Positions 22,418 through 31,763 of a stretch of DNA of 64,000 bases are shown in pieces. The notes beneath the pieces were generated by a model. The model was not told the DNA's origin, did not search any database, and saw only the letters and a list, made by a program, of their open reading frames with translations. The DNA comes from Streptacidiphilus albus JL83. Its GTDB lineage: Bacteria > Actinomycetota > Actinomycetes > Streptomycetales > Streptomycetaceae. Made by a program: the position numbers and the translations under genes. The stretch lies in NCBI RefSeq assembly GCF_000744705.1, contig NZ_JQML01000001.1, forward strand, positions 1,426,001-1,490,000, read 5' to 3'. Each line of letters begins with the position of its first letter. The stretch's first letter is position 1.

Positions 22418-22855
22418 TCAGACCGCCAGAACCTTGACCTTCACAGGGCTACCCGTTCGCCCAGCATCGGCTCGGTCCAGTCGATCGCCGAGGAGAGTGG
22501 AGATGTCGTCCACGTCCGAGGTCAGCACGGTCACCGGCTTGTCGACTGCGGCCAGCGCAGTGGCGACAACCATGGCGTCAATGGCGTATTTGTGCCCATG
22601 CAGACCCGCGCTCTTCAGAAGGTTCGACGCAGCCCTGGCCAGATCCTGTGTGAGAGGGACGGCCACCAGACGGGACAGCGCCCAGTCGAGCCTCGCGGAA
22701 TGCACTCCAACGCAGTCGGCCTCAACGACGGTGGCAGCCGCGATCACGACCCGGACGTCGTCCTGGGCGGCCACCACCAGACGCGCCGTCATCTTCCGAT
22801 CGGCACGCAGGTAGAGCGAGAGGGCCTCGCTGTCGAGCACCCAGGTCCCACTCAC
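22418..22855 (-). CDS. vapC: PIN-domain toxin VapC
   Basis: A 145-residue PIN-fold ribonuclease. Acidic active-site residues are visible: LDSEALS at the N-terminus, VVEAD in the middle, IDAMVVATA and TSDVDD near the C-terminus. VapC toxins cleave RNA, often tRNA or rRNA, when the antitoxin is lost. Its start overlaps the stop of vapB by 4 nt (ATGA). Confidence 0.88.
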   Translation of the reverse strand: MSGTWVLDSEALSLYLRADRKMTARLVVAAQDDVRVVIAAATVVEADCVGVHSARLDWALSRLVAVPLTQDLARAASNLLKSAGLHGHKYAIDAMVVATALAAVDKPVTVLTSDVDDISTLLGDRLDRADAGRTGSPVKVKVLAV

Positions 22856-23124
22856 GCGACCTCGCCACGCGGCACCGCGCCGTAGATCTCCTCGCGAGCC
22901 GCTCGGACCTCCTCAGGCGTGAGCGAACCGTGGATCTCCTCATTTGCCTGGATCATCGCCTGAAGATTGTCACGCTCTATCTGGCGCCGCACAGCCGCCT
23001 CGACATACGGCGAAACGCCACGCTTCCCCACGCGGTCGCGTACCGAATCGATGACACTGGCGTGAAAGGACACCGACACGGAAACGGTCGGATCCTGCTC
23101 AGGGGCGGGAGTGCTGTCAGCCAT
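22852..23124 (-). CDS. vapB: VapB-type antitoxin (ribbon-helix-helix)
   Basis: A 90-residue protein: an N-terminal strand VSVSVSFHASVIDSVRD with helices GVSPYVEAAVRRQIERDN fits a ribbon-helix-helix DNA-binding domain, and the acidic C-terminal helix (LTPEEVRAAREEIYGA) would wrap the toxin. First gene of the vapBC operon. The message appears leaderless: TAGAGT ends six nt before the ATG, inside a 21-bp palindromic operator. Confidence 0.85.
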   Translation of the reverse strand: MADSTPAPEQDPTVSVSVSFHASVIDSVRDRVGKRGVSPYVEAAVRRQIERDNLQAMIQANEEIHGSLTPEEVRAAREEIYGAVPRGEVA

Positions 23125-23962: not shown

Positions 23963-25111
23963 TCAGACCTCGTCCGCCGCGGTCAGCTCGCCGCCGCCGG
24001 CGAGTCCGGCGGTCCACTTCTCCTCGACGTTCCCGAAGCGCCAGATGAGCAGGGCGGCGGCCCAGGTGACGACGAACATGCCGACGATGACGAAGCCGGC
24101 CTTGTTGATGTCGAACCCGGCCATGTCGTCCCAGAACTGGCCCTTCAGGTTCAGCTCCTGGGGCAGCAGGCCCAGGACCTCGACGGTGCCGATGAAGAAG
24201 CAGATGGCCACGGACAGGCCGGTGATGGCAAGGTTGTAGTAGACCTTGCGGACCGGGTTGAGGAAGGCCCAGCCGTAGGCGACGTTCATGAAGCAGCCGT
24301 CGATGGTGTCCATCAGGCTCATCCCGGCGGTGAACAGGATCGGCAGCGCCATGATCGCGTACCAGGGGACGTGCTGGGTGGCCAGCAGCGCCGTGGTGGC
24401 CAGCAGCGCGACCTCGGTGGCGGTGTCGAAACCCATCCCGAAGACCACACCGACCGGGTACATCTGCCACGGCTTGCGAATTGCCCGCATCCACTTGCCG
24501 AAGAAGCGGTACATCAGCCCGCGCGCCTCCAACTGGGCCTCCAGCGCGGCTTCGTCGTACTCGCCCCGGCGCATGGAGCGGAACACCCGGACGATCCCGG
24601 CCAGGATCACGATGTTCAGCACCGCGATCAGGTACAGGAAGCTCGCCGAGACGACCGTCCCGAAGACCCCGCCGAACTGTTCCAGGCTGGAGTTGTCGTT
24701 GGAGACCGCCGAGTACACCGTCTTCTCCGCGAAGACGATGCCGACCCCGATCGCCACCACGATCGTGGAGTGGCCGAGGGAGAACCAGTAGCCGACGCTC
24801 AGGGGGCGCTGACCCTCACTCATGAGCTTGCGGGTGGTGTTGTCGATCGCCGAGATGTGGTCGGCGTCGAAGGCGTGCCGCAGCCCCAACGTGTAGGCCA
24901 GCACCGCTACGCCGACCCCCATCCCCTTGTAGTGCTGGGGCACCACCAGAAAGATGAAGATCCCGAAGCCGATGACGTGCAGCGCCACGATCGAGCCGAA
25001 CATCAGCGCCGCCCGCCGCCACTCCGCCGGACTGAGCGCCTGCTGCAACTGTCTGTACCGGCCGACCAGACCAGATCCGCCTGCCGGGGTCACGGTGCCG
25101 GACATCGCCAT
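23963..25111 (-). CDS. NiCoT-family nickel/cobalt permease
   Basis: A 382-residue membrane protein with about eight hydrophobic segments. The NiCoT signature RHAFDADHISAIDN lies in helix II, and the other family blocks are present: LGHSTIVV, GFDTATEVALL and TAGMSLMDTIDGCFM. These permeases import Ni2+ (and Co2+) with high affinity for urease, hydrogenase or Ni-superoxide dismutase. Start chosen at the ATG with AAGGAG six nt upstream rather than a longer upstream frame, because that longer version would place the operator inside the coding region. Confidence 0.93.
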   Translation of the reverse strand: MAMSGTVTPAGGSGLVGRYRQLQQALSPAEWRRAALMFGSIVALHVIGFGIFIFLVVPQHYKGMGVGVAVLAYTLGLRHAFDADHISAIDNTTRKLMSEGQRPLSVGYWFSLGHSTIVVAIGVGIVFAEKTVYSAVSNDNSSLEQFGGVFGTVVSASFLYLIAVLNIVILAGIVRVFRSMRRGEYDEAALEAQLEARGLMYRFFGKWMRAIRKPWQMYPVGVVFGMGFDTATEVALLATTALLATQHVPWYAIMALPILFTAGMSLMDTIDGCFMNVAYGWAFLNPVRKVYYNLAITGLSVAICFFIGTVEVLGLLPQELNLKGQFWDDMAGFDINKAGFVIVGMFVVTWAAALLIWRFGNVEEKWTAGLAGGGELTAADEV

Positions 25112-25166
25112 CGACTGCTCCTTCGCTGCCGCAGCCGGAGCAGGCCGGCTGACCGGGAGGTCCTTA

Positions 25167-25217
25167 TTGCACATTAAATGCAATAGCTAAAGATAGCCAG
25201 GAAGGGTCCCGCGTCAA
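25167..25217 (-). promoter_or_regulatory. Promoter and Nur-like box of the nickel permease
   Basis: On the minus strand TTGACG (25217-25212), a 16-bp spacer and TATCTT (25195-25190) form a good sigma-70-type promoter. At the expected transcription start lies TTGCATTTAATGTGCAA (25183-25167), which fits the tTGCaa-N5-ttGCAA consensus described for Nur, the nickel-responsive Fur-family repressor of Streptomyces. Binding there would shut off import when nickel is plentiful. Confidence 0.75.
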
Positions 25218-25317: not shown

Positions 25318-28300
25318 TCACTGGCCCGTCCCCTCCATCTGCTGCGAGGTCATTCCGTGCCTCATCGCACCGGGCTCCGCCATCGTGGCCTGCATGATGC
25401 CCTGCATGGTGAGCGAGCCGGGCGGCCCCACCGGCGCGAACGCGTACACGGTCCCGGACCTGGCGAACATCAGGTCGATCGGGATGGTGGCACCGGGCTC
25501 GGCCGGCTGCGTCAGTCCGGACAGGACGATGCTGTCGCCGCCCGGGTCGAGCGTGACCGTGCCGTGGGCCGGGATGGTGATCCCGGGCAGGGCCTGGCCT
25601 GAGGCGGTGACCAGTCCGGCCCGGGCTGCGGACGGGGTGGAGATGCCGAGCAGCCGGTCCGGCGCGTCGCCGGCGTTCCGGATGACCAGGTAGCCGTGCA
25701 CCACGCCGTCGGCGGGCGGCTTCAGGTAGGCGTTGACCATGCCGAGTACCGGCACGCCCGGTGTGCGGTGGTCGGCGAACGTGAGCTCGCCGCCGACGAC
25801 CAGCAGCAGGGCCGCCAGCAGAGCCGCCCCGGGGAGCAGCAGTTGGCGTCTGCGGCGGCCGGCGGAGGCGGCACCGTAGGCTTCCAGCTCGGCAGCCTCC
25901 CGCTCCAGTTCCAGCAGTTCCGGCTCGTCCAACTCCTCTGTCCGTTGCCTGCCCGACGCGGGTTCGGCCGCACTGCCTCTCGCCCGGTCGCCCGGGTGGG
26001 CGGTCTCTTGGACTCGCACCGTCGGCGCAGCCGCCTCGCCCCACAGTGCCGGTCCCCGGCCCCGGGATCCGCCGCGGCGGGGGCCGCCGGCGGGGTCGGG
26101 GCGCCAGGTGCGCAGGCGCAGGCTGTTGGCGACGACCAGGACCGAACTGGCGGACATGGCCGCTGCGGCGAGCATCGGGTTGAGCAGGCCGACTGCGGCC
26201 AGCGGGATCAGCAGCAGGTTGTAGCCGAACGCCCAGACGAGGTTGGTCCTGATGGTGCCCAGGGTGCGCCGGGCCAGACGCACCGCGTCCGGCAGCGCCT
26301 CGATGTCGCCGCGGACCAGGGTGATCCCGGCCGCGCCGATCGCGGCGTCGGTGCCGCTGCCCATGGCGATGCCCAGGTCGGCGGCGGCCAGTGCAACGGT
26401 GTCGTTGACCCCGTCGCCGACCACGGCCACCACCCGTCCGACCTTCTGGAGGTCGGCGACGATCTGCTGCTTGCCCTCCGGCGTGGTCGCCGCGTGGACC
26501 TCGGTGATCCCCAGTTCGGCGGCCACCGCCCGGGCTGCGCCGTCCTGGTCACCGGTCACCAGGACGGGGCGCAGGCCCATCCGCTTCAGCCGGTGCACTG
26601 CACGCCAGCTACCGGGACGCACCCGGTCACCCACCGCCAGCACCGCGAGCGGATCCCCGTCCACGTCGACCACAACCACGGTGCGACCCGCCTGTTGAGC
26701 CGCCTCCAGGGCCGTGCCCAGTTCGGTCGGAAGTGCGGGGTGCTGGTCGGGGCGTACAACCTGGACCTGCCGGCCCTCGACCTGGGCGCTGACGCCTCGC
26801 CCGGCGGTGGCGCGGAAGCCGACCGCTTCGGGCAGGGCGGTGTCGCTCTCGCGTCGGGCCGCGGCGGCGATGGCCTGGCCGATCGGGTGCTCCGAATGGT
26901 GCTCGACGGCTCCGGCCAGGCGCAGCAGCAGCTGAGCGTCCTGACCGGCGACGACCGTGGTGGCGAGGAGTTCCATCCGACCACTGGTGAGGGTGCCGGT
27001 CTTGTCCAGGATGACGGTGTCCACCCGCCGCAGTGACTCCATTGCCTCGGGTCCCCGGACCAGGATGCCGAGTTGGGCTCCGCGTCCGGTGGCGGCCAGC
27101 AGTGCGGTGGGGGTGGCCAGCCCGAGTGCGCAGGGGCAGGCCACCACGAGGACGGCGACGGCCGCCGAGACCGCGTCGGGAGCGTTCGCCCCGGCGCCCA
27201 GCCAGAAGCCCAGCACGCAGACCGCGATGGCCAGCACCACCGGCACGAACACCCCGGCCACCGTGTCCGCCAGCCGCTGCGCCTTGGCCTTGCCCGCCTG
27301 GGCGTCGGTGACCAGGGCGGTGATGCGGGCGAGTCGGGTGTCGGCGCCGACCGCCGCGGCCCGCACCACCAGCGTCCCGCCGACGTTGAGGGTCGCCCCC
27401 GCGACCGGGTCCCCCGGTCCTGCTTCCACCGGGACGCTCTCCCCGGTCAGCAGGCTCAGGTCCAGCGCGGAGCTGCCCTCGACCACCACGCCGTCGGTGG
27501 CGACCTGCTCGCCCGGACGCACCACGAACTCGTCGCCCGGCAGCAGTCGGTCGATCGGTACGGTCCGCTCCTGGCCGTTCTGGCGCAGGCAGACGTCCTT
27601 GACGCCCAGCTCCGCCAACGAGCGCAGCGCCGATCCGGTGCGGTTCCGGGCCCGGCCCTCCAGCAGCCGGCCGGTCAGCACGAACAGCGGCACGGCGACC
27701 GCCGCCTCCAGGTAGATGTGCGCGCCGCCGCCGGTTCCCGCGGTCAGCGAGAAGCCCATCCGCATCCCCGGCTGCCCGGCTCCGCCGGCGAACAGCGCGT
27801 ACACCGACCAGCCGAAGGACGCGACCACGCCCAGGCTGACCAGGGTGTCCATGGTCGCCGTGGCGTGCCGCAGCGCCGCCCACGCCTGCCGGTGGAACGA
27901 CAGCGCGCCCCAGGAGACCACCGGGGCGGCCAGCGCGAAGCACAGCCACTGCCAGTTGCGGAACTGCAGGCCGGGCAGCATCGACAGCACGATCACCGGC
28001 ACGGCCAGCGCGGCCACCCCGAGCAGGCGCCTGACCCGCGCCGCTTCCTGCTCCGCTGCCGTGTCCGCGTCAGGCACAGTGTGCGCCGAATCGGCGGCGG
28101 GCTGCGCGCTGTATCCGGCCCGCTCGACCGCGGCGACCAGCTCTTCCAACGCGACGCCGGGCGGGTGCAGCACCCTGGCCCGGCCGGTGGCCAGGTTCAC
28201 CCCGGCGCTGACGCCGTCCAAACGGGCCAGCCGCTTCTCCACCCGGGCCACACAGGCGGCGCAGGTCATCCCGCCCACGATCAGATCCGTGGTCAGCAGC

Positions 28301-28350
28301 GCGCCGTCGCTCTCCTCCGGGGCCGGGCGTCCGACCGCGTCAGTGCTCAT
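25318..28350 (-). CDS. copA: Copper-exporting P1B ATPase continuous with a C-terminal PCuAC-like domain
   Basis: 1010 residues. Residues 20-85 are an HMA domain with GMTCAAC (Cys30, Cys33). The P-type core has TGES, the CPC metal site (VVACPCALGLATPTA), phosphorylated Asp in DKTGTLTS, EHHSEHPIG and GDGVNDT, ending near residue 755. After a charged Glu/Ala/Leu linker comes an extra membrane helix (about 835-860) and a PCu(A)C-like beta domain (about 862-976: VHGYLVIRNAGDAPDRLLG, IPAHGTVTLDPGGDSIVLSG). The usual His/Met ligands of PCuAC are not at their normal places, but the last 35 residues are Met-rich (MQGIM, MAEPGAMRHGM). Canonical CopA is ~750 residues. The frame is open throughout; no separate start with a good ribosome site is seen for the tail. 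The ATG overlaps the preceding gene by 4 nt. Confidence 0.88.
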   Translation of the reverse strand: MSTDAVGRPAPEESDGALLTTDLIVGGMTCAACVARVEKRLARLDGVSAGVNLATGRARVLHPPGVALEELVAAVERAGYSAQPAADSAHTVPDADTAAEQEAARVRRLLGVAALAVPVIVLSMLPGLQFRNWQWLCFALAAPVVSWGALSFHRQAWAALRHATATMDTLVSLGVVASFGWSVYALFAGGAGQPGMRMGFSLTAGTGGGAHIYLEAAVAVPLFVLTGRLLEGRARNRTGSALRSLAELGVKDVCLRQNGQERTVPIDRLLPGDEFVVRPGEQVATDGVVVEGSSALDLSLLTGESVPVEAGPGDPVAGATLNVGGTLVVRAAAVGADTRLARITALVTDAQAGKAKAQRLADTVAGVFVPVVLAIAVCVLGFWLGAGANAPDAVSAAVAVLVVACPCALGLATPTALLAATGRGAQLGILVRGPEAMESLRRVDTVILDKTGTLTSGRMELLATTVVAGQDAQLLLRLAGAVEHHSEHPIGQAIAAAARRESDTALPEAVGFRATAGRGVSAQVEGRQVQVVRPDQHPALPTELGTALEAAQQAGRTVVVVDVDGDPLAVLAVGDRVRPGSWRAVHRLKRMGLRPVLVTGDQDGAARAVAAELGITEVHAATTPEGKQQIVADLQKVGRVVAVVGDGVNDTVALAAADLGIAMGSGTDAAIGAAGITLVRGDIEALPDAVRLARRTLGTIRTNLVWAFGYNLLLIPLAAVGLLNPMLAAAAMSASSVLVVANSLRLRTWRPDPAGGPRRGGSRGRGPALWGEAAAPTVRVQETAHPGDRARGSAAEPASGRQRTEELDEPELLELEREAAELEAYGAASAGRRRRQLLLPGAALLAALLLVVGGELTFADHRTPGVPVLGMVNAYLKPPADGVVHGYLVIRNAGDAPDRLLGISTPSAARAGLVTASGQALPGITIPAHGTVTLDPGGDSIVLSGLTQPAEPGATIPIDLMFARSGTVYAFAPVGPPGSLTMQGIMQATMAEPGAMRHGMTSQQMEGTGQ

Positions 28351-28622
28351 CGTCCCTCCCCTGCGGCCGAGTTGACCGGCTGCGGAGCTGCAGCGCCCAT
28401 GCCCGACATGGACATCCCGGGCATACCCGGCATGGTTCCGCCGCCGTGGCCACTGGAACCCGGGAAGTCCCCCGGCGAGAGCGGACCGACCAGTCGGCCG
28501 ACCATGAACGACGCGGCGAACAGGAGCAGCAGGCCGACGAGGGCCGCCAGCAGCACACGGCGGGGAGCCGATCGGCCGCCGGCCGCGGACGGCTGCGGCG
28601 AGGGGCGAGGAGCGAGGAGCAT
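28347..28622 (-). CDS. Met-rich single-helix membrane protein next to copA
   Basis: A 91-residue protein: basic N-terminus, one membrane helix (about residues 22-42), then an external tail with TMPGMPGMSMSGMG and a HGGG segment. Methionine clusters of this kind bind Cu(I) in periplasmic or surface copper proteins. Coupled to copA by an ATGA overlap, so it probably works with the ATPase, for example by handing over or holding copper. Not a recognised family; role inferred from composition and context. Confidence 0.7.
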   Translation of the reverse strand: MLLAPRPSPQPSAAGGRSAPRRVLLAALVGLLLLFAASFMVGRLVGPLSPGDFPGSSGHGGGTMPGMPGMSMSGMGAAAPQPVNSAAGEGR

Positions 28623-28737
28623 GGTGTGGCCAGCTTCCGGGTCGGGAAGGGGTGATCGCGCGGCGCGCGAAGCAAGGACAGCGCGCCGGCGCGGGCAGGC
28701 GACAGCCAGCCTGTCGCCGCGGATATCAAAGGTCCAG

Positions 28738-28777
28738 AGGTGGTCCTGGTGGTGCACGTGCACCACCAGGACCACCT
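28738..28777. repeat. 40-bp perfect palindrome without loop
   Basis: Positions 28738-28757 and 28758-28777 are exact reverse complements, centred on GTGCACGTGCAC. It lies 7 bp beyond the stop of the DUF5134 gene and about 115 bp before the Met-rich gene. It may act as a terminator or processing site that separates the two halves of the copper locus, or as an operator. Confidence 0.95.
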
Positions 28778-28783
28778 GGCTGC

Positions 28784-29581
28784 TTACTGCAGCAGGATGA
28801 CCAGCATGAACGCCATCGTGACGCTCATGGCTATGTCGCAGCAGTTCGCGCCGCGGGGCGCGAGCAGGCTGCGAACCGGGCTCTGCGCCCGGCCTCGGCC
28901 TTCAGCGTCCGGACCGGAACCCGGCTCGGGTGCGGAGGCGTCGGCGTCGGTGTCGTCAGCCTCAGTCACCGCGCAGCACGCGCCGCCCAGCGCAGCAGAC
29001 TGCCCCGTGCCGCCCGCCTGCGGCGTGCCGCCGGAGGCCGCCAGCAGCGGAGTGCGGTCGATGACCATGACCGCATAGCCGCACAGGAACAGCGCCAGCA
29101 CCAACGCGAGGGTCGGGTAGTGGACGACCATGGACGCGGCCCCGCCCATGCCCCCGCCCATGCCCCCGCCCATGCCGCCGCCCATGCCGCCGCCCATGCC
29201 GCCGCCCGAGGACGAACCGGCGCCCGCCCCGGACGGGGCGAAGAACATGTAGAGCATCGCGCCGGACAGGACCAGGTGCGGGACGTGGTGCCGCAGCGTC
29301 AGCCGCGCCTGGTCGGCCCCGCGCCAGGCCAGGACCACCCGCCCGGCGAACCACAGGGTCGTCAGTGTGAACACGACCTTCCAGACCGTCGCGTTCAGCG
29401 GGTTCAGGTCGGATACCAGCATGCCCGCCATGGCCACCCCCATCAGCAGGTGGACGACGTCGCTGTCGTGCTCGACCCGCCGTCCGAGCCGACGGGCCAG
29501 AGCCAGGCGACCGGCGCAGTAGACGGCGGTGGCCAGCATGATCGCGGCGAAGATGTCCGCGAGCCAGTCGGGGATGTTCAC
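28784..29581 (-). CDS. DUF5134 family membrane protein with Gly-Met repeat loop
   Basis: A 265-residue protein with about six membrane helices. N-terminal helices (ADIFAAIMLATAVYCAGRLAL, VHLLMGVAMAGMLVSDLNPL) and HHVPHLVLSGAMLYMFF match DUF5134. Between helices lies a GGGM tetrapeptide repeat (about residues 125-150), a low-complexity Met loop that could bind copper. His and Met in the helices and Cys-Cys pairs near residues 205 and 250 are further candidate ligands. GTG start overlapping the previous stop by 4 nt. DUF5134 function is not established. Confidence 0.8.
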   Translation of the reverse strand: MNIPDWLADIFAAIMLATAVYCAGRLALARRLGRRVEHDSDVVHLLMGVAMAGMLVSDLNPLNATVWKVVFTLTTLWFAGRVVLAWRGADQARLTLRHHVPHLVLSGAMLYMFFAPSGAGAGSSSGGGMGGGMGGGMGGGMGGGMGGAASMVVHYPTLALVLALFLCGYAVMVIDRTPLLAASGGTPQAGGTGQSAALGGACCAVTEADDTDADASAPEPGSGPDAEGRGRAQSPVRSLLAPRGANCCDIAMSVTMAFMLVILLQ

Positions 29582-31061: not shown

Positions 31062-31763
31062 TCACCCCACGAGAGCGGCCGCCGGAGGACCACGGCGGAC
31101 GACCACGTCCAACAGGGCGCACCGGCCGGGCTGCGGCAGCAGCCAGGCGTCGCGGGCGCGCGGGGGCACGGGAACGGTCGGCGTCCAGGTGCCGAACGCG
31201 AGTGCCAGCAGGAACAGCGCGAACCGCAGCACGGACGTCAGGGCTGCCGTCGCCACCACGCGTAGCACCGCGAACACCGATGCCTCGCCCCGGCGCAGCC
31301 ACCAGGCACTGATCAGACCGGCCGCCACGTGCACGGCCAGCATCCCCCACGGTCCGTGTCCCATGGGTGCCATGGTGTGGGTCGAACCCATCGGCATGGC
31401 ACCGCCCATACCGGCCATCGCCATCCCGGCCATGGCATGGGACGAGCCCATGTCCATCGGCATCGAGGCCCGCGCGCTCGCGGCAGCCGTCGTCGTGGAG
31501 GTTCCCGTCCAGGCCTGGGCCGACGAGAAGTAGAGGTGCAGCCCCAACTCACTCAGCAGCACAACGGTGGCGATGCCGGAGAAGGAGCGCTCCCGCCCGG
31601 TCAGGACCAGCGCCACTGCCAGCACCGCCGCATAGGCGACAACCAGAGCCCGGACCGGGATGCCCTGGCCGGACATCCACCAGTGCCCCGCCACCGACAG
31701 CGCCAGGCACACCGCGGCGAACAGCGCGGCGCGCATCAGGCGCAGAGACGATCCCAGGGGCAC
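31062..31763 (-). CDS. Membrane protein with a Met/His-rich external loop
   Basis: A 233-residue protein with about five membrane helices. The loop at about residues 98-135 is packed with Met and His (SMPMDMGSSHAMAGMAMAGMG, MPMGSTHTMAPMGHG), a copper-binding composition. Flanking helices (LRLMRAALFAAVCLALSV, FSGIATVVLLSELGLHLYF) resemble small metal-uptake membrane proteins but no family is certain. Starts at a GTG; an in-frame ATG (31737) is an alternative. First gene of the minus-strand copper set, though 470 bp separate it from the next gene. Confidence 0.75.
   Translation of the reverse strand: MPLGSSLRLMRAALFAAVCLALSVAGHWWMSGQGIPVRALVVAYAAVLAVALVLTGRERSFSGIATVVLLSELGLHLYFSSAQAWTGTSTTTAAASARASMPMDMGSSHAMAGMAMAGMGGAMPMGSTHTMAPMGHGPWGMLAVHVAAGLISAWWLRRGEASVFAVLRVVATAALTSVLRFALFLLALAFGTWTPTVPVPPRARDAWLLPQPGRCALLDVVVRRGPPAAALVG

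Follow-up and report, generated by a model that had tools for sequence, protein, structure and literature searches.

Hand-over of Cu(I) from a P1B-type ATPase to a partner protein has been described for E. coli CopA, which passes Cu(I) to CusF through docking (PMC7558416). In the engineered CcoI-SenC fusion of Rhodobacter capsulatus, the C terminus of a P1B ATPase is linked to a copper chaperone of extracytoplasmic location through the chaperone's transmembrane (TM) helix. The fusion is active in vivo, both metal sites being required; it resembles the protein described here in this linkage but is man-made and carries a Sco-type chaperone whose intact copper site is needed for function (PMC8475189). 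The DUF1775 (YcnI)-PCuAC proteins of proteobacteria are natural fusions that likewise put a PCuAC domain into a copper protein, but the transporter is not part of the fusion (PMC8424229). For AccA of N. gonorrhoeae, the canonical ligand motif is essential, whereas the Met/His tail is dispensable (PMC13006917). We found no natural P1B-ATPase-PCuAC fusion in the literature that we searched, most subscription papers lying outside its coverage. For bacteria without a periplasm, little is known to date about the molecule that receives the Cu(I) delivered by CopA to the outer face. Here, we describe a fusion of this kind in a stretch of 64,000 nucleotides of Streptacidiphilus albus JL83 (the window, in whose numbering positions are given).

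Domain structure of the fused reading frame

On the minus strand, positions 28350-25318 form one open frame of 1010 codons with no internal stop in an ORF scan of this Streptacidiphilus genome. The initial annotation had claimed that a single frame joins a complete P1B copper ATPase to a linker, a helix, and a PCuAC-like domain, and the uninterrupted ORF, the motifs, and the Pfam matches bear this out: HMA, E1-E2 ATPase, HAD hydrolase, and PCuAC domains all exceed the curated cut-offs. The 1010-residue product (25318-28350, minus strand, as are all features within it) begins as a CopA-type P1B-1 ATPase. An N-terminal heavy-metal-associated (HMA) domain occupies residues 23-80 (28111-28284; PF00403), with GMTCAACV at residue 27, and is followed by the E1-E2 ATPase actuator region at residues 255-426 (27073-27588; PF00122), within which lie TGES (residue 302) and CPC (residue 405). 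The HAD hydrolase P/N domains span residues 443-658 (26377-27024; PF00702) and contain DKTGT (residue 449) and GDGVND (residue 645). Homology to CopA ends with YN (GYN at residue 709), MSASS (AMSASS at residue 731), and NSLRLRTW, at residues ~707-752 (26094-26232), and orthologues stop soon after. With CPC in TM6, YN and MxxxS in TM7/8, TGES, DKTGT, and GDGVND all present, and a score of 503 bits against the copper-translocating ATPase profile TIGR01511 (cut-off 397), the CopA part is by its sequence a complete P1B-1 copper ATPase and a predicted Cu(I) exporter. The match to CopA (TIGR01511; structures 3rfu and 7r0g) is full length, including the CxxC of the HMA domain, but the fused protein adds ~260 residues past the last TM helix, made up of a linker, a coil, a ninth helix, and the PCuAC-like domain.

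The appendage opens with a polar, Arg/Gly/Pro-rich linker at residues 753-805 (25936-26093), in which the GC3 contrast is reduced and the coding signal is weak (GC by codon position 0.85/0.68/0.80). A charged, acidic coil at residues 806-835 (25846-25935) leads into the extra TM helix at residues 836-860 (25771-25845), which was identified by hydropathy and is predicted to run N-in/C-out by the positive-inside rule, with RRRRQ at residue 832 just before the hydrophobic segment at residues 836-854. In the established topology of P1B ATPases, the C terminus of CopA is cytoplasmic; with RRRR ahead of the added helix, the PCuAC-like domain is therefore predicted to face outward. This domain, at residues 876-968 (25447-25725), matches PF04314 with an E value of 6e-20 (71.5 bits, gathering cut-off 29.4), and the solved PCuACs closest to it in sequence by phmmer are 3zja from Streptomyces (6e-11) and 1x9l (1e-10). 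Of the four canonical PCuAC Cu(I) ligands (HXnMX21/22HXM), none is retained, the positions being occupied by V / gap / S / V, as they are in the closest relative, Streptacidiphilus sp. 4-A2. The protein ends in a Met-rich tail at residues 980-1010 (25321-25413), whose 31 residues include six Met and one His; given how frequent Met is in the protein as a whole, this enrichment has a P of about 5e-6. The six Met and the His are all retained in 4-A2. The earlier claims of an additional membrane helix after CopA, a PCuAC domain that lacks the His/Met ligands, and a Met-rich C-terminal end thus agree with what we found. AlphaFold was applied to two sequences of the tail and to the full-length protein; with pLDDT values of 33 and 38, the models are too poor for judging fold or placement. 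The appendage resembles the ECuC / PCu(A)C chaperones of Streptomyces (3zja; PF04314) in its domain, for which the profile and phmmer matches predict the same fold, a cupredoxin-like beta barrel, and in its predicted extracytoplasmic orientation. In contrast to these separate secreted or anchored proteins, the fused domain is without their ligand motif, is covalently joined to an ATPase, and is held by an internal TM anchor.

Reliability of the junction and selection on the appendage

The locus lies inside one 9.9-Mb contig of an assembly that is 98% complete. Of the other forward frames, one is interrupted at codons 714 and 876 and open in the interval, while the third is stop-free from ~680 to the end. 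Because no forward frame contains a stop between residues 714 and 876, one indel cannot split the genes ahead of the helix: no single shift stops CopA before it, and a single sequencing indel is not easily possible as the origin of the fusion. Streptacidiphilus sp. 4-A2 (G013, locus L066) has the same domain order, a tail 76% identical to that of the fused protein, and no stop between the halves, with its PCuAC in a different frame. Its linker is longer by 92 nt, one base under 31 codons; the coding-position GC of this extra sequence follows the CopA frame, and the register shifts where the PCuAC frame starts. We rejected 4-A2 as proof of separate genes because its assembly (76% complete) shows at least roughly a dozen 1-nt gaps in 6 kb and its copy of this copA gene is itself frameshifted midway. 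The 4-A2 protein is probably also fused, although it does not amount to independent proof. We conclude that the natural CopA-PCuAC fusion is real and lineage-specific; among the genomes examined, it is intact in one only, that of this Streptacidiphilus, a soil actinomycete.

We computed dN/dS between the fusion strain and 4-A2 and obtained 0.15 for the CopA core, 0.46 for the PCuAC domain, and 0.29 for the Met tail. The appendage is thus under purifying selection, which is strongest on the Met tail, its best-conserved part. For the linker, the value of 0.73 in the CopA frame, compared with 1.65 and 1.29 when the other frames are read, comes from few codons and weakly supports evolution as coding sequence in the CopA frame.

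Separate genes in relatives and the origin of the fused domain

Of 150 Streptomycetaceae genomes sampled, 49 contained the orthologous CopA. At 38 of 46 Streptomycetaceae loci (20/26 loci fetched with flanks and 18/20 further loci, L075 and L076 being inspected closely), the TGA stop of CopA overlaps the start of a separate PCuAC ORF in an RTGA sequence (ATGA or GTGA), and we infer translational coupling from these overlaps. None of the coupled loci examined encodes a fused protein, which indicates that the fused state is derived and rare. At one locus (L090), a separate PCuAC lies a little downstream of CopA, and in a handful of loci no PCuAC follows CopA; these include Streptacidiphilus G012, whose CopA orthologue ends in ...LWGGADG and is followed by a DUF929 gene. 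Upstream of the fused gene, positions 28347-28775 of the minus strand encode a small single-TM protein with a Met-rich extracytoplasmic end (TMPGMPGMSMSGMG), and the stop of this gene overlaps the CopA start. Most orthologous loci likewise carry, just 5' of CopA, a small TM protein whose end is rich in Met and His; judging from gene order, the Met-rich TM peptide, CopA, and PCuAC form a conserved cassette in Streptomycetaceae. The initial annotation had named separate genes in related genomes as an observation that would speak against the fusion. Such genes do exist, but they place the fusion as a derived state of a conserved pair rather than overturning it, and the conservation of that pair supports a functional link between the pump and a PCuAC-type domain.

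The coupled pairs resemble the fused protein in their orthologous CopA, the type of adjoining domain, and the upstream Met-rich TM peptide, but they consist of two ORFs in different frames, and their PCuAC belongs to another clade and has HxH and Asp residues. In the coupled PCuACs found 3' of copA (L086-L111 and L112-L129), the canonical motif is missing too; most have a conserved RHxHxG and, where the third ligand would be, an Asp, which hints at a metal site of a different kind.

In the PCuAC tree, all coupled PCuACs form one clade (100/97), and the fused pair lies elsewhere: the fused domain groups inside a family of free-standing, membrane-anchored PCuACs found only in Streptacidiphilus, whose acidic coil and TM helix are also present in the fused protein. 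This placement rejects the idea that the fused domain is the coupled partner minus its stop. The fused PCuAC belonging to a different lineage, the CopA-PCuAC link would have formed a second time, so that the association seems to have arisen twice, via two PCuAC lineages. Among 394 genomes of the family and 296 of the class, we found no similarly close homologue of the fused PCuAC outside Streptacidiphilus, and a plasmid search returned ordinary separate PCuACs only and no fusion. The arrangement in G012 had raised the idea that a DUF929 gene was lost from between CopA and PCuAC; we dropped it, the gene 5' of the free-standing PCuACs encoding an unrelated His-containing protein. The free-standing Streptacidiphilus PCuAC always lies behind a 246-residue TM protein (L078:6427-7856 and other flanks) that contains HIHAH and HTHDETGIIHIE motifs, lacks a Pfam match, and may be a metal-binding partner.

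Possible role of the tethered domain and its neighbors

We favor, with a probability of roughly 50%, a lineage-specific fusion in which the tethered PCuAC-like module docks or accepts exported Cu(I) via the Met tail and passes it on. An accessory Streptomycetaceae CopA, usually part of a three-gene cassette, would here have become one polypeptide with an anchored PCuAC-like module of the Streptacidiphilus type. CopA would export Cu(I) across the membrane, and the cytoplasmic coil and added helix would keep the PCuAC-like domain next to the exit site on the outer face, where it may dock or briefly take Cu(I) via the Met-rich tail; the Met-rich partner or some other acceptor at the surface would then receive the Cu(I). 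Topology, proximity to the exit site, and copper transfer are all predicted here. Selection on the appendage, the docking of CopA with CusF, and the working CcoI-SenC fusion together favor a tethered acceptor or docking domain. Since AccA needs its barrel motif and not its tail, we do not file the fused domain with the canonical PCuAC chaperones, and the loss of all four ligands likewise argues against a canonical metallochaperone role. Most likely, then, the domain is tethered at the exit side as an acceptor of Cu(I) or a docking module and is not a canonical CuA chaperone.

The main rival to Cu(I) acceptance by the tethered module is that the domain binds no copper and acts as a structural or docking module, stabilizing CopA, dimerizing, or recruiting another protein, whether the Met-rich partner or a target enzyme, in which case closeness to the exit site would serve assembly and not metal transfer. 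The V / gap / S / V ligand positions fit this explanation, the motif being essential in a true PCuAC (AccA; PMC13006917), and the free-standing relatives are degenerate too, so the family may have switched role. Nonetheless, the six tail Met residues are retained in the most constrained part of the appendage and the same CopA clade is tied to PCuACs in most relatives, and we judge a metal-free module improbable on balance. It is also conceivable, but unlikely in our estimation, that the open frame yields two proteins, with a free PCuAC started from internal GTG778 or TTG807, or that the junction is an assembly error. Both codons are in frame, the 4-A2 halves are out of frame with each other, and the genes are separate in relatives, but neither codon has a well-placed ribosome-binding site, one indel is insufficient across the stop-free interval of residues 714-876, and the 4-A2 shift is seen in a gapped, incomplete assembly with a copA frameshift, where 92 nt is 31 codons minus one base.

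A neutral or decaying accident, in which stop loss fused CopA to an adjoining degenerate paralogue with no new function, would suit a fusion that is rare and confined to a single lineage, with a domain dN/dS three times the CopA value. However, dN/dS stays below 1 across the tail, with its minimum in the Met tail, and 4-A2 keeps the same order at 76% identity, and we regard such an accident as very improbable.

The natural fusion and the RTGA coupling in most relatives point to one specific class of candidate acceptor and suggest that the pump and an outside-facing PCuAC-type domain cooperate. CopA-PCuAC linkage appears to have come about through two distinct PCuAC lineages, and a ligand-less PCuAC-like domain stays under selection beside a copper exporter. 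More tentatively, and with considerable doubt on our part, we postulate that CopA-linked PCuAC-like proteins are a distinct, non-canonical class of exit-side acceptors dedicated to P1B-1 ATPases and recruited at least twice, once as an overlapping gene pair and once as a fusion. In the fused form, the Met tail would replace the Cu(I) site of the barrel, and Cu(I) export and first acceptance would take place inside one polypeptide. The fusion offers a covalent system in which Cu(I) hand-over can be probed by trimming the tail.

Several neighboring genes lie on the same strand. Directly 3' of the fusion, 23963-25183 encodes a NicO-type nickel/cobalt transporter (PF03824, 3e-98), and further on, 22418-23124 holds two overlapping small ORFs that by eye look like a PIN-type toxin and antitoxin, without a Pfam match at the 0.01 level. 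The gene run that holds the fusion also includes 28784-29581, which encodes a DUF5134 membrane protein with a tandem GGGM repeat, shorter in 4-A2 (~36 nt gap). At 31062-31763, the copper gene run encodes a membrane protein rich in Met and His; the gene is intact here, while its 4-A2 counterpart has many 1-nt gaps. In L075 and L076, a similar protein lies 3' of the CopA-PCuAC pair.
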